Shown one piece after another: positions 43,565-49,873 of a stretch of DNA of 64,000 bases (position 1 is the stretch's first letter; each line of letters starts with the position of its first letter). This stretch comes from Nitrosopumilaceae archaeon. Its GTDB lineage: Archaea; Thermoproteota; Nitrososphaeria; Nitrososphaerales; Nitrosopumilaceae. The stretch covers positions 1 through 64,000 of the forward strand of contig JAHELB010000002.1 of NCBI GenBank assembly GCA_024644385.1. The letters run 5' to 3'. A program made the translations under genes and the position numbers. The notes under the pieces were generated by a model. That model was not told the origin of the DNA and made no database searches. It saw only the letters and a list, made by a program, of their open reading frames with translations.

Positions 43565-43957
43565 TTACCGAATTTGGATTTTGTGACCTGAAGCTTCTTT
43601 TGGTATTGTAATTGTTAACCTACCTTTGTTAAATTTAGCAGTTGTTTTTTTATCATCGATTTTCTTAGGAAGGGTAAGAGTTTTTTTAAAATATTCAAAT
43701 TTTGTTTTTACACCTAATTTTTCTTCTAAATAGCTCTCTTGTAATTTTGCTTCAACGGAAATCGAATTTTCATTAATTGTTATTTTTATATCGTTTTTGT
43801 TTACAAGGGGAAGATCGAATTCTAGTATCCAATTTGTTTCAAATTCCCTTAGACAAGAAAGTGGGGAGAGAGTCTGTTGATCAATATCATCGTTTAACAA
43901 TGAGCTAATTGACGGCGATAAGATTCCAAATTCAGGGATGTTTTCTTTTTTATCCAT
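43565..43957 (-). CDS. Hsp20/alpha-crystallin family (likely start MDKKENIPEFG)
   Basis: NWILEFDLPLVNKNDIKITINENSISVEAKL; FNKGRLTITIPK; AGGTGAT just upstream of the internal ATG. Confidence 0.87.
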   Translation of the reverse strand: MDKKENIPEFGILSPSISSLLNDDIDQQTLSPLSCLREFETNWILEFDLPLVNKNDIKITINENSISVEAKLQESYLEEKLGVKTKFEYFKKTLTLPKKIDDKKTTAKFNKGRLTITIPKEASGHKIQIR

Positions 43958-43961
43958 AAAA

Positions 43962-44681
43962 TCACCTGTAAATTTGTGGAGGTCTACCAACCTTTTTTTC
44001 TTGTTGTAAGGAACGAATTGTTTCTTCCATTAAATTTCTATGTTGAATTCGTAACCATTCAATTTTCTTTTGTATATCACCTGTGTCTATTTTTACATCT
44101 AATACCCTAGCTAGAGTAGTAATTGCTACAATAGAGGCCTCAGGATCAGGGAAAAAGGGATGGCATTCAGCATATAAGATTAAGGCGGGGATTTGAGATT
44201 TTCTAAAAGATGTAATCATTGCGGCATCTGTTCCAAAAATTGAACCTGCTAAGAATTTGGAAATTCTAAAATCATAAAGGAGTTTTTCTAATGACTTGTG
44301 TGTAACTAGACCATAAATTTTTGAAGCTTTAGGATCTTTGTTTATTGTTTCCATTCCGCTTATGATAATTATCTTTTTTATTAGATTTTTTTTGGCATAA
44401 TCTATAATTGACTCCGCAAAGTCATATGCAATAAAAGGATCAAATGGAAGATCAGACAATATAACAAAAAGATTATTTTTTTTATAGATTCGTATGGGTG
44501 GGAGGATTTCTCCGTTTTCGACAAATAAGGTAGGAGGTAGATCAGGATGCTCTATTTCTCCTATTTGACTCATTTCTAAATGATGAATTAAATATGAAAC
44601 GGTAAAAGTCCCTACAAGACCATTACTTGGGAATCCTACAAGTAATATGTTTTCTTTAAGTGATTTTTTGCTAGTTTGCAT
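43962..44681 (-). CDS. PAC2 family protein (proteasome assembly chaperone-like)
   Basis: LLVGFPSNGLVGTFTVSYLIHHL, HPDLPPTLFVENGEILPPIRIY, IFGTDAAMI. Confidence 0.88.
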   Translation of the reverse strand: MQTSKKSLKENILLVGFPSNGLVGTFTVSYLIHHLEMSQIGEIEHPDLPPTLFVENGEILPPIRIYKKNNLFVILSDLPFDPFIAYDFAESIIDYAKKNLIKKIIIISGMETINKDPKASKIYGLVTHKSLEKLLYDFRISKFLAGSIFGTDAAMITSFRKSQIPALILYAECHPFFPDPEASIVAITTLARVLDVKIDTGDIQKKIEWLRIQHRNLMEETIRSLQQEKKVGRPPQIYR

Positions 44682-44683
44682 AA

Positions 44684-45871
44684 TTAGAAGACAGGTAATC
44701 CCATTTTTCTAATACTAGGTTTTGACCTTTGTTTTGCCCGTTTAGAAAGATTTCTTAAAAGTTTTTGGCTAATCTCTTCTAAAACTTCACTTAGATCAAA
44801 TCCAACAGATTTGTAAATTAATGGAGCACGATGAGTTGTAGAAACTCTTATTGTAACCTCAAATTTTCCTTCTCTCTTTCCGCCGCTTCTTTGTTTTTTA
44901 ATTAAAACTCTTGCTTCGTGAATTTCTGAATAAGTTTTTTGTAATCTTTTTAGAGTTTTTTCAAATTTAGACCTAATCAAATTAGAGTTACGTTGATCTT
45001 CAGGCATTCCAACTATAAATAATGGAATTTGTGTTTCAATTTTGGATGCTAACAATCCTAGGATATCTTTGAAGGTAATTATTCCTTGTAGATTGTCCCA
45101 GAGATTAACAAGACAACATGTTGTATCACTTTTTAGCATAGATTTGAGAATTTTATTTAAATCATCATTCGGCGAACATTGAGGAATCCTGGTGCTACCA
45201 ATATTCCCAATTCTTGATTCTAATTTATGAACTCGGTTTGCTCCTATTGAGAAACGACCTAAACTTTCCTTGGGTAATATAGTCTCCAATAGATGAAATG
45301 AAGTCAGAACTTGTTTTATTTTGCCATTATTTAGGACTGGGAGATGATCGATTTTTTTACTAGTCATTATTCTTTTTGCGTTACTCAATGATTCGTTTGC
45401 ATCAATTATTGTAGGATTTTGTGTGTAGATTAGATTGGCTTTTATCCATTTGTTATCCTTTAATGAAAGTAATTTAAGAATTGATTTTGCAGTAACAACA
45501 CCTATAATTTTATTTTTGGAAACAACTGGAACTTCTCTTGTTTTATAATGGGTCATTATGTGGGACGCTTTTTGAATAGAATCCTCCGGAGAGACATATG
45601 GGACTGGAGAAAGAAAGGCATCTACTTTCATGGTTGTTATATTTTTTGCATTTAGCAAAGAAAGGATGTTAGTTGATAGGGTAGATTTTCCATTTATACA
45701 AAATACATCATAGGCATTATTTCTGCTAATTTTATTAATTACCGAAGATAGTGTTTCGTTAGGTTCAATAATTGTAGGTTTTGATATTAGTCTCTTTATT
45801 TTGGTAGATTGTAAATCTTTAAGATGTTCATAAATTGTATCTGTAATCATTTGATCTATCTGATAAATCAC
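44684..45871 (-). CDS. CBS-domain protein with C-terminal HPF/RaiA-like domain
   Basis: Repeated CBS units; tail EARVLIKKQ...KFEVTIRVSTTHRAPLIYKSVGFDLSEVLEEISQKLLRNLSKRAKQR matches S30AE/HPF beta-beta-beta-alpha pattern. Confidence 0.8.
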   Translation of the reverse strand: MIYQIDQMITDTIYEHLKDLQSTKIKRLISKPTIIEPNETLSSVINKISRNNAYDVFCINGKSTLSTNILSLLNAKNITTMKVDAFLSPVPYVSPEDSIQKASHIMTHYKTREVPVVSKNKIIGVVTAKSILKLLSLKDNKWIKANLIYTQNPTIIDANESLSNAKRIMTSKKIDHLPVLNNGKIKQVLTSFHLLETILPKESLGRFSIGANRVHKLESRIGNIGSTRIPQCSPNDDLNKILKSMLKSDTTCCLVNLWDNLQGIITFKDILGLLASKIETQIPLFIVGMPEDQRNSNLIRSKFEKTLKRLQKTYSEIHEARVLIKKQRSGGKREGKFEVTIRVSTTHRAPLIYKSVGFDLSEVLEEISQKLLRNLSKRAKQRSKPSIRKMGLPVF

Positions 45872-45922
45872 CCTGTTTTAAATTAAAAGAAACCTCTAGA
45901 TTTTCAAATTTGATTTTCATGT

Positions 45923-46834
45923 GTGATATTTGAGTTCATATATTTAACCGCAAAACTATCAATTGAATTATTGTTATTAAAAAATGCTAGTTTAAATCAA
46001 ATAATAATAAAAAAAACTATTACCATCAACCCAAATACTAGTTTGCTCGATGCTAGAGGAATTTTACTTCGACATAATTTAAAACGACTTGTTGTGATTA
46101 ATTCTAAAAAAATTCCAGTTGGGATTATTACGGAAAAAGATATCGCAAAGACGATTTATGCTTTAGGTGACAAACCGATTAAATCTGTAAAGGTTTCAGG
46201 GTTTATGTCAAAAACACTATTTACCGTAAAAAAATCGGCATCAGTATATGATTGTGCTAAATTAATGAGAAAACATCGTATTAGTTCAGTTATTGTTTTG
46301 GCGAGAAACGGAATTTTAGAAGGGCTAGTTACAAAAACAGATTTAGCTTCAATTTTTCTAACACATGCTGTTTCTCCACTTAAAGTTTCAAAAATAATGA
46401 CTAGACGAGTAGTTACTGCAATGCCAGGAGATTCTTTGCTTTTTGTTGAAAGTTTGTTAATTCATAACAGAATTTCAAGAATTGTTATCCAACGAGATAA
46501 AATCCCTGTTGGAATAATCACATACAGAGATTTTGTGCCAGCGAAATTGCCATATTGGATTTCGCAATTTGCAGACCCTAAGGAGGTGGAGGATTATAAA
46601 ACCAAGAATTACCTTGGAGAGTTTCAAGTAAACCAAATGAGTCATTTACTTCAATTCAAAGCTGTAGATATTATGACGTCTAATCCAATTATAGTAAAAG
46701 CTGATGAGGATGTTAGTGTAGCTGTTTTATTAATGATAAGAAATGGTATAAGTGGAATACCAGTTGTAAAAAATTCCAAACTAGTAGGAATTATCACAAA
46801 AGCAGATGTTGTAAAAGCTATAGCAGAGGCTTAA
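45923..46834 (+). CDS. Four-CBS-domain protein
   Basis: Repeated IPVGIITEKDIA / ILEGLVTKTDLA / IPVGIITYRDFV / LVGIITKADVV. Confidence 0.9.
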   Translation: MIFEFIYLTAKLSIELLLLKNASLNQIIIKKTITINPNTSLLDARGILLRHNLKRLVVINSKKIPVGIITEKDIAKTIYALGDKPIKSVKVSGFMSKTLFTVKKSASVYDCAKLMRKHRISSVIVLARNGILEGLVTKTDLASIFLTHAVSPLKVSKIMTRRVVTAMPGDSLLFVESLLIHNRISRIVIQRDKIPVGIITYRDFVPAKLPYWISQFADPKEVEDYKTKNYLGEFQVNQMSHLLQFKAVDIMTSNPIIVKADEDVSVAVLLMIRNGISGIPVVKNSKLVGIITKADVVKAIAEA

Positions 46835-46835
46835 T

Positions 46836-47285
46836 TTATTTCACTATTAATAAGGAACAGGGGGAATTATTTGCAAGTTTATTTGATACACTACCAAGAA
46901 AAAATCTCGCTGTGGCACCAAGACCTTTACTTCCCACTATCATTAGATTACATTTTTTATTTTTAGCAAGTTTTACAATTTCATTTGTTATATTTCCCTC
47001 TTTTATTATCGTAGTTACATCAAGTCCTTTGTCATTAGCAGTTTTTTTTCCTTTCAGTAGAACTCTATTTCCAAACTTTCGAAGAATTTCTAGATACTCT
47101 TTTTTATCTAACAAATTTAACGATGGGGATTTATCAACGACATAAACTAAAATCAAATTTGATTGGTAAACTCTGGCAAGATCACACGCTTGAATAAGAG
47201 CTTTTTGAGAATTGTCCGAACCGTCTAATGGAACCAGGATGTTCATGTATAATGATTTTCTCATATTATAAAAAATCATAATCAT
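46836..47285 (-). CDS. Universal stress protein (UspA family)
   Basis: NILVPLDGSDNSQKAL; MIVGSKGLGATARFFLGSVSNKLANNSPCSLLIVK. Confidence 0.93.
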   Translation of the reverse strand: MIMIFYNMRKSLYMNILVPLDGSDNSQKALIQACDLARVYQSNLILVYVVDKSPSLNLLDKKEYLEILRKFGNRVLLKGKKTANDKGLDVTTIIKEGNITNEIVKLAKNKKCNLMIVGSKGLGATARFFLGSVSNKLANNSPCSLLIVK

Positions 47286-47387
47286 AGATATTAAACTAAA
47301 CCGTTGAAAATCAATTTGGAAAGAGTTGATTATTAAAATTGATAATCTAGATTTAGTATTAATTCATAAAAGTTAATTTGTATAGAA

Positions 47388-47816
47388 ATGATTAGGAAAA
47401 AAATAAAGAAAATTCTTGTTCCTTTAGACGGATCTAAAAATTCCATGAGGGGTCTGGATGAGGGAATTTATCTTGCAAGGCAATGTCAGGCAACAATTAC
47501 GGGCTTGTATGTTATCCCAATTTTTCCTAGAAATTTTGTTGATGCCATTATGCCATTTCAAATCCACCTAACAAAGATCGCAAAAAAATTTATGAGTGAA
47601 GCAAAAGACAGATGTGCCCAAAAAGGAATTGTTTTTAAATCTAAAATTATTTTTGGCAGTCCAACCGTGGAGATTGAAGAAGTATCGCGTAAGGGAAAAT
47701 TTGATATTATTATTATGGGTTCTAGGGGGCAAAGTGGATTAAAGGAAGTTTTTTTGGGCAGTGTAGCAAATGCGGTTGTCCATAAATCAAAAGTACCAGT
47801 GTTAGTGGTGAAATAG
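47388..47816 (+). CDS. Universal stress protein (UspA family)
   Basis: KILVPLDGSKNSMRGLDEG; IIMGSRGQSGLKEVFLGSVANAVVHKSKVPVLVVK. Confidence 0.94.
   Translation: MIRKKIKKILVPLDGSKNSMRGLDEGIYLARQCQATITGLYVIPIFPRNFVDAIMPFQIHLTKIAKKFMSEAKDRCAQKGIVFKSKIIFGSPTVEIEEVSRKGKFDIIIMGSRGQSGLKEVFLGSVANAVVHKSKVPVLVVK
47396..47513 (+). repeat. 118-bp perfect repeat, arm 1 (inverted relative to 49148-49265)
   Basis: Base-by-base reverse-complement comparison. Confidence 0.95.
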
Positions 47817-47823
47817 TAATAGT

Positions 47824-48294
47824 ATGTTCTCAAAAATGTTGACTAAAATTTTAGTCCCGTATGATGGCTCAAAATTTTCAGCAAAGGCATTAACACGAGC
47901 TATGGAGCTTGCACACAACCTTGATTCAGAAATATTTTTATTTTCTGTAGTAAATGTAGGATATATTTCTCCTCCAGGATTACTCCGTAGTTTAATTAAA
48001 TCAAAAGAAGAAAAAGCTGCTATTAAAAAATGGTCAAAATCAGTTAAAGCGGATGCAGAAAGAATGTTGAAAAAGGCTGTAAAAAAATGTCAATCAAAAG
48101 GAATTACTGCATCATTTTGGATTGATCAGGGAGAAATTGCAAGTAAAATTTTGGATTTTGCAAAAGACAAAAAAATTTCATTAATAGTTATTGGAAGTCA
48201 GGGGCTTCATGGGATAGGACAATTAAAGACTTTAGGAAGTGTAAGTAGAAGGGTATCTGAAAATGCAAAATGCCCAGTTTTAATAGTAAGGTAA
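47824..48294 (+). CDS. Universal stress protein (UspA family)
   Basis: KILVPYDGSKFSAKAL; IVIGSQGLHGIGQLKTLGSVSRRVSENAKCPVLIVR. Confidence 0.93.
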   Translation: MFSKMLTKILVPYDGSKFSAKALTRAMELAHNLDSEIFLFSVVNVGYISPPGLLRSLIKSKEEKAAIKKWSKSVKADAERMLKKAVKKCQSKGITASFWIDQGEIASKILDFAKDKKISLIVIGSQGLHGIGQLKTLGSVSRRVSENAKCPVLIVR

Positions 48295-48331
48295 CCTAAT
48301 TTTCTTTCGTTATATTAAAAATTAAATTTTT

Positions 48332-48772
48332 TTATTGTTCTTTTTGCATTCTGGTAAGGATTTGATCACAGATTTTTCTCATTTCAGAGTCAGATCCAAT
48401 ACTACAAATTTCCACTAAATCCGATGTTGTTATTATCCCCACAACTTTGTTGTCCTCTATTACTGGTAATTTGTGAATGTGATTTTCCTTCATTTCTTCA
48501 GCTGCTTCCCAAACTGTTTCATCAGGATCAATTGATATCAGGGGTGAGGACATTACTTGTTCTATTGGAGAGGTGATTGGCTTTTCTTTAGAAACAATGC
48601 GTTTAACAAAGTCTCTTTCTGTAAGAATTCCTACCGGTAATCCATCTCTAGTTGCAATGATACATCCAATATTTTTATCATCCATTAATTTTGCTGCTTC
48701 TTTGATAGTTGCCAAAGAATCTAAGGAATTTACCTTGTCAATCATGACATCCCTTACAAAGGTATGGGCCAT
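48332..48772 (-). CDS. CBS-pair protein
   Basis: AAKLMDDKNIGCIIATRDGLPVGILTERDFVKRI; KVVGIITTSDLVEI. Confidence 0.92.
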   Translation of the reverse strand: MAHTFVRDVMIDKVNSLDSLATIKEAAKLMDDKNIGCIIATRDGLPVGILTERDFVKRIVSKEKPITSPIEQVMSSPLISIDPDETVWEAAEEMKENHIHKLPVIEDNKVVGIITTSDLVEICSIGSDSEMRKICDQILTRMQKEQ

Positions 48773-48844
48773 ATTTTTAACACAAATGTTATTCTAATAA
48801 AGAAGATCCCAATTTTCATCTTGAGAAAGTAGTTTATGATAAAA

Positions 48845-49267
48845 CTACTTTACGATTAAAATGGGTATATTGGATTTATGAAGAACTGAGTTTGAAGTGC
48901 TTCCAAGAAAAGCTTCTTTTAATCCACTTTGCCCCCTAGAACCCATAATAATAATATCATATGATTTTTTTTTTGAGAAATTAATAATTTTAGAAGCCTC
49001 ATCACCATATACTACTTGGTCATCAAAAACAATTCCATTTTGTGCAGCTCGTTTTTTGGCTTTTGCCATAAATTTAGCGGCATTATTAAGTAAGTATTTT
49101 TCAGCGTATGAAATTTGAGAATTAGTTTGGGGTTTTGCTAAGGGAACAACATACAAGCCCGTAATTGTTGCCTGACATTGCCTTGCAAGATAAATTCCCT
49201 CATCCAGACCCCTCATGGAATTTTTAGATCCGTCTAAAGGAACAAGAATTTTCTTTATTTTTTTCAT
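48845..49267 (-). CDS. Universal stress protein (UspA family), paralog of 47388..47816
   Basis: Near-identical N-terminal and GSRGQSGLKE regions to 47388..47816. Confidence 0.94.
   Translation of the reverse strand: MKKIKKILVPLDGSKNSMRGLDEGIYLARQCQATITGLYVVPLAKPQTNSQISYAEKYLLNNAAKFMAKAKKRAAQNGIVFDDQVVYGDEASKIINFSKKKSYDIIIMGSRGQSGLKEAFLGSTSNSVLHKSNIPILIVK
49148..49265 (-). repeat. 118-bp perfect repeat, arm 2 (inverted)
   Basis: Reverse complement identical to 47396-47513. Confidence 0.95.
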
Positions 49268-49408
49268 AAATAATTAATTGTAAAATAGAATTTAAGAAGT
49301 TTTCAAAATATCATCAATAATAATTCCAAAATAGTATTCTCTTGTTTGATTTTCAAGAATGAGATTATGCGAAGTCTCTATAATACTTGAAAAACTAAAT
49401 TAAATGAT

Positions 49409-49873
49409 ATGGAATCTAGGGCTAGAGGTATTACGGTAAAGAATATTATGAATAAATCGATTATTTCCGTTGACGCCACTCTTTCTTCCAATGAGGCTGC
49501 AAAAATGATGGAAGATACAAAAGTAGGTGCCGTAATTGTGATGGAGAACAACACGCCGATAGGGATTGTTACAGATAGAGATTTTGCAATTAAAATTGTA
49601 GCTCATGCTTATCAAATTACAACTCCAGTAAAACAGATCATGTCTTCTCCACTTATTGCCACCAGTCCAGATGAAACAGTTTTGATGGCTGCAGATCTAA
49701 TGTATACCAGGGATATCAGGAAATTGCCTGTAATTGACAATGACAAAGTGGTGGGGATAGTTACAGCTTCAGATCTAGTTAAACAACTAGCTATATCAAC
49801 TGAGGAGGATATCCAAAAAATGTATCATGAAACTGTAATCAAGGTTTACAAACAATATAGTCCTTATAATTAA
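49409..49873 (+). CDS. CBS-pair protein
   Basis: EAAKMMEDTKVGAVIVMENNTPIGIVTDRDFAIKI; KVVGIVTASDLVKQL. Confidence 0.92.
   Translation: MESRARGITVKNIMNKSIISVDATLSSNEAAKMMEDTKVGAVIVMENNTPIGIVTDRDFAIKIVAHAYQITTPVKQIMSSPLIATSPDETVLMAADLMYTRDIRKLPVIDNDKVVGIVTASDLVKQLAISTEEDIQKMYHETVIKVYKQYSPYN

Follow-up and report, generated by a model that had tools for sequence, protein, structure and literature searches.

The window, a stretch of 64,000 nucleotides from a Nitrosopumilaceae archaeon, carries on its minus strand a single open reading frame at 44684-45871 (395 aa counted from GTG). Pfam assigned three CBS domains and an S30AE domain to the encoded protein (CBS whole-protein E 2.9e-28), and a fourth, degenerate CBS domain was visible at the N-terminus in the AlphaFold model. 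The segment 44684-45022 (minus strand), which encodes the peptide quoted in the preliminary description, is the C-terminal part of this frame. The gene is called hibA below, and the features of the locus are as follows.

43565-43957, minus strand: HSP20 small heat-shock protein gene, ATG at 43957 (PF00011, E 2.3e-14)
43962-44681, minus strand: gene for a PAC2-family proteasome assembly chaperone homologue (PF09754, E 1.9e-35), starting 2 nt past the hibA stop codon
44684-45850, minus strand: hibA coding sequence, 388 aa from the probable start, ATG 45850 (395 aa from the alternative GTG 45871)
44687-45028, minus strand: HPF/RaiA (S30AE) domain, residues 275-388, fold β-α-β-β-β-α (Pfam, family profile, AlphaFold, Foldseek)
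44705-44728, minus strand: basic motif RSKPSIRK, residues 375-382 (alignments A1 and A2)
45047-45208, minus strand: CBS4 (PF00571, 23.6 bits, 24 with neighbours)
45065-45085, minus strand: CBS4 nucleotide motif GIITFKD (G256, T259, D262)
45203-45277, minus strand: long loop between CBS3 and CBS4, residues 192-216 (gap-free alignment to PDB chain 9sr9_H)
45278-45427, minus strand: CBS3 (PF00571, 32.6 bits)
45464-45610, minus strand: CBS2 (PF00571, 45.6 bits)
45653-45799, minus strand: CBS1, about residues 18-66, degenerate and lacking the Asp of the nucleotide motif (AlphaFold secondary structure; conservation)
45877-45905, minus strand: hibA promoter block GAAAATCTAGAGGTTTCTTTTAATTTAAA, an imperfect inverted repeat and a TATA-like stretch, ending about 25 nt upstream of the ATG (upstream-region alignment)
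45923-46834, plus strand: divergent gene for a four-CBS protein, true start uncertain (PF00571, four stretches)

The N-termini of relatives from many genera start at M-I-[TSA]-D-T-I-[YH], which corresponds to residue 8 of the open reading frame. Because of these conserved N-termini and the promoter block about 25 nt upstream, hibA probably starts at ATG 45850, giving a protein of 388 aa, and GTG 45871 is probably not the start. The nearest named relative comes from Nitrosopumilus sp. SF_Bin31 (87%), and Candidatus Nitrosomaritimum khambatensis (80%) belongs to the same group. Two hibA copies were observed in one genome (L055 582-1763 and L034 1545-2714; 66% and 81% identical to the protein studied here). 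Nitrosarchaeum sp. BD3 also has a second copy (L060 9980-11163), in two overlapping frames, which reflects a frameshift or an assembly error.

HibA, a protein consisting of a four-CBS module and an HPF/RaiA domain, was described in April 2026 by Madru et al. (PMC13324472). It binds and inactivates ribosomes, is carried by 47% of archaeal genomes and was visible by cryo-EM on ribosomes of stressed Pyrococcus abyssi (PMC13324472). The Pyrococcus and Thermococcus proteins were shown to bind ribosomes and AMP and to inhibit translation, their deletion had a phenotype, and Thermococcus barophilus needs HibA for timely exit from stationary phase (PMC13324472). A profile built from the protein of the window and 18 relatives matched PDB chain 9sr9_H in a single stretch running from CBS1 through to the last helix (profile positions 22-372, chain residues 11-373, E 3.3e-17). 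This chain has 392 aa, is present in eight PDB entries and carries the PDB label 'Dehydrogenase'; we take it to be P. abyssi HibA (Pa-HibA) because its length, its domain order and the set of entries fit, not because of a printed name. From this end-to-end match we conclude that the protein is very probably a ribosome hibernation factor, orthologous to HibA.

Both proteins share four tandem CBS domains, a long loop between CBS3 and CBS4, a nucleotide motif at the CBS3/CBS4 module, a C-terminal HPF/RaiA domain and almost the same length (388 versus 392 aa; P. abyssi Q9UYR4, PMC13324472). They differ in that their sequence identity is low and that in Nitrosopumilaceae PAC2 and HSP20 genes lie downstream and the gene has a conserved promoter block of its own. 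Thus the system is not of a new kind, its family being already published as HibA. The preliminary description had proposed a candidate hibernation factor, and that proposal is supported by the predicted HPF fold and by the match to the chain taken as Pa-HibA; the family is by this time a published one. We infer from Pyrococcus that ribosome binding and translation inhibition take place in the Nitrosopumilaceae organism too. The four-CBS module would swing, on the 50S side, into the vacant tRNA sites, where the long CBS3-CBS4 loop could reach the peptidyl-transferase centre. Translation would be blocked, and the 70S ribosome would be kept from disassembly and degradation until growth returns.

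The best fold matches of the CBS module included the ribosome-bound archaeal proteins SriA/SriB, SriD and Dri, beside AMPK gamma. The Sri proteins of Methanosarcina acetivorans (PDB 9znf, 9zng, 9zni) likewise place a four-CBS module on archaeal ribosomes but have no HPF domain. Dri of Pyrobaculum (9e6q) is also a ribosome-bound CBS protein; it has two CBS modules and no HPF domain, whereas the protein here has one module plus HPF. By alignment, the CBS3-CBS4 loop corresponds to the one that HibA inserts into the peptidyl-transferase centre. Between the end of CBS3 and the first residue of CBS4 lie 36 residues in this protein and 34-42 in 17 distant relatives; residues 195-204 of the loop had low model confidence in AlphaFold. 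CBS1 gave no match in Pfam.

Conservation of the nucleotide motif was counted in 67 sequences, which came from a whole-protein search in which the motif itself was not used, 17 of them mostly from the order's other families. G-x-x-T-x-x-D was kept throughout in CBS4 alone (invariant in 67/67), and the Asp was mostly missing from CBS1-3. This sole intact motif fits the single nucleotide per module that Pa-HibA holds at CBS3/4 (PMC13324472), and the CBS3/CBS4 interface probably takes up a single adenine nucleotide. Nucleotide sensing, as the preliminary description had it, is thus plausible, with the site kept in every sequence and AMP bound by Pa-HibA. The same description called the factor energy-gated, and this part did not hold up equally well. 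A HibA-type factor whose ribosome binding is switched directly by the AMP/ATP ratio would agree with the invariant CBS4 residues and with the affinities of the Pa-HibA module (Kd 12 µM for AMP, 113 µM for ATP; PMC13324472). However, adding AMP or ATP at 5 mM to reconstituted P. abyssi complexes hardly shifted how HibA was distributed among its states, showing no clear effect on ribosome binding, and the native complexes contained no nucleotide (PMC13324472). We therefore regard direct energy gating as doubtful, though worth keeping in mind.

The part that follows the CBS domains is an HPF/RaiA domain, as the preliminary description had proposed. For the single protein, the S30AE score was 23.1 bits against the Pfam cut-off of 23.7 (E 1.3e-4), but PF02482 was matched by 37 of 67 domain sequences in the family at E ≤ 0.01. 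Searching PDB by phmmer with the C-terminal domain alone returned no match, so a family profile was required. With this profile, hibernation factors came out on top (6qbz, E 4.9e-4, followed by 6s0x, 5nd8, 8uu4 and 8rd8). The presence of the HPF fold in a predicted structure had been set beforehand as a point on which the claim should stand or fall, and the fold was found. The AlphaFold model of the domain, built from 67 sequences, had the order β-α-β-β-β-α at moderate confidence (mean pLDDT 79), and all 18 structures at Foldseek ranks 1-18 were HPF/pY/RaiA structures. The HPF domain of HibA is marked by two archaeal insertions; in an alignment to the 9sr9_H chain only, loop lengths here were within two residues of those of that chain. 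The domain shares its fold with bacterial HPF/RaiA/pY, which have no CBS module. Bacterial long HPF also has a C-terminal dimerisation domain, whereas the protein here lacks one by Pfam and ends after its basic tail. The basic motif RSKPSIRK is common to fused and standalone HPF domains.

A domain of this fold could have been kept for action elsewhere, in a nucleotide-responsive regulator like CM-3/HhpR or in a partner of DNA replication proteins. The long loop is indeed also present in the CBS modules of the transcription regulator HhpR, and pull-downs in Thermococcales tie HibA to replication and recombination proteins (PMC13324472). Membership in CM-3/HhpR was rejected, since the NCBIfam HhpR model scored only 43.7 bits against its cut-off of 520. 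Pfam found no DNA-binding domain in the protein, and the conserved basic C-terminal motif together with the HPF fold also argues against such a role, which we consider very unlikely. That the HPF likeness is a chance match to some other small α/β domain is practically negligible: the score just below the Pfam cut-off and the empty phmmer search would allow it, but the profile, the family-wide Pfam matches, the predicted topology and Foldseek all agree in contradicting it. HibA, with a genuine HPF/RaiA domain, is the reading followed below.

The description of HibA listed Nitrosopumilaceae as one of few lineages in which no hibernation factor could be identified (PMC13324472). We searched 185 genomes of the family with a completeness floor of 80% (family by GTDB grouping, Nitrosotalea included), and the counts are lower bounds. 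Full-length HibA was found in at least 65 genomes and a standalone HPF domain in at least 47, with both present in four; with two fragments included, at least 110 of the 185 carried HibA or a standalone HPF. At the class level, the HPF profile was matched by at least 114 of 200 genomes. Within the order, the Pfam S30AE model had matches in no more than 19 of the 150 genomes searched, which may explain how such factors escape notice. Among those listed, no HibA or HPF came from the small genomes (0.9-1.2 Mb) of the genus g19.

Standalone HPF/RaiA-like proteins of Nitrososphaerales are known from PMC13324472. They share the HPF domain and the basic C-terminal motif with HibA, and in relatives they take its place beside the divergent CBS gene; unlike HibA they have no CBS module. 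Thirteen of them formed one clade in the tree (support 100/99), separate and on a long branch beside the HibA groups of Nitrosopumilaceae; the tree was built from 112 columns and leaves the exact joining point of this clade undecided. In 13 of 16 loci, the standalone HPF gene was divergent from the four-CBS gene that also flanks hibA. Since both hibA and the standalone gene adjoin this divergent CBS gene, our results suggest that standalone HPF arose at the locus itself, when the CBS module was lost. The reverse was seen in three g12 genomes, where a CBS module, HibA-like and 271-279 aa long, ends after CBS4 (L154 4674-5486, L155 775-1611 and L156 5059-5886) and a standalone HPF is encoded elsewhere in the genome. 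In these genomes HibA is apparently split into two genes.

The genes downstream of hibA also follow a pattern. In closer relatives, the PAC2 gene was next downstream of hibA in 26 of 41 cases and HSP20 in 24 of 40. Of about 16 Nitrosotalea-like loci only one had the order hibA-PAC2-HSP20, and no Nitrososphaeraceae-like locus among those compared had it. The three genes probably form an operon with hibA first. In Thermococcales, hibA is controlled by the heat-shock repressor Phr (PMC13324472), and here the apparent operon, with its HSP20 gene, independently hints at the same link.

On the other side, the divergent CBS gene adjoined hibA in 29 of 41 loci of closer relatives. The best PDB match of its four-CBS product was SriC of M. 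acetivorans (9zni_6, E 1.8e-20; next match 1.3e-14), and SriC was likewise nearest in PDB for the CBS protein beside a standalone HPF. By this resemblance the divergent protein may be a ribosome factor itself. The likeness to SriC serves as a lead only, because CBS proteins all resemble one another. A cluster of universal-stress-protein and two-CBS genes was also observed beside hibA at 46836-49873; most of its gene order recurs across the genus and in Nitrosarchaeum.

The promoter block between hibA and the divergent gene was conserved across genera in the upstream alignment. It occurred only once in the genome with up to three mismatches allowed, and it stayed with hibA where the gene had been relocated (L042). 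Within the block, an imperfect inverted repeat (GAAAATC..GGTTTC) stands directly before the TATA-like stretch, and this repeat is possibly the operator of some regulator. The whole locus could be a hibernation and proteostasis island, in which HibA and the SriC-like CBS protein would be partners on idle ribosomes, the co-transcribed PAC2 homologue and HSP20 would tend the proteasome and proteins, and one stress-responsive promoter would work through its own operator. We offer this scheme as speculation that is, as a whole, rather improbable.

Ammonia-oxidising archaea live near energy limitation. The presence of HibA or a diverged HPF in most of the sampled Nitrosopumilaceae genomes turns the reported gap into a testable pattern, in which many lines from estuaries, sediment, groundwater and lakes are positive and small-genome genera, among the genomes listed, are negative. 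What is new here beyond PMC13324472 is the distribution in Nitrosopumilaceae, the standalone forms in place, the single conserved nucleotide motif and the gene neighbourhood. The linked genes are concrete candidates for the partners and the regulation of HibA.
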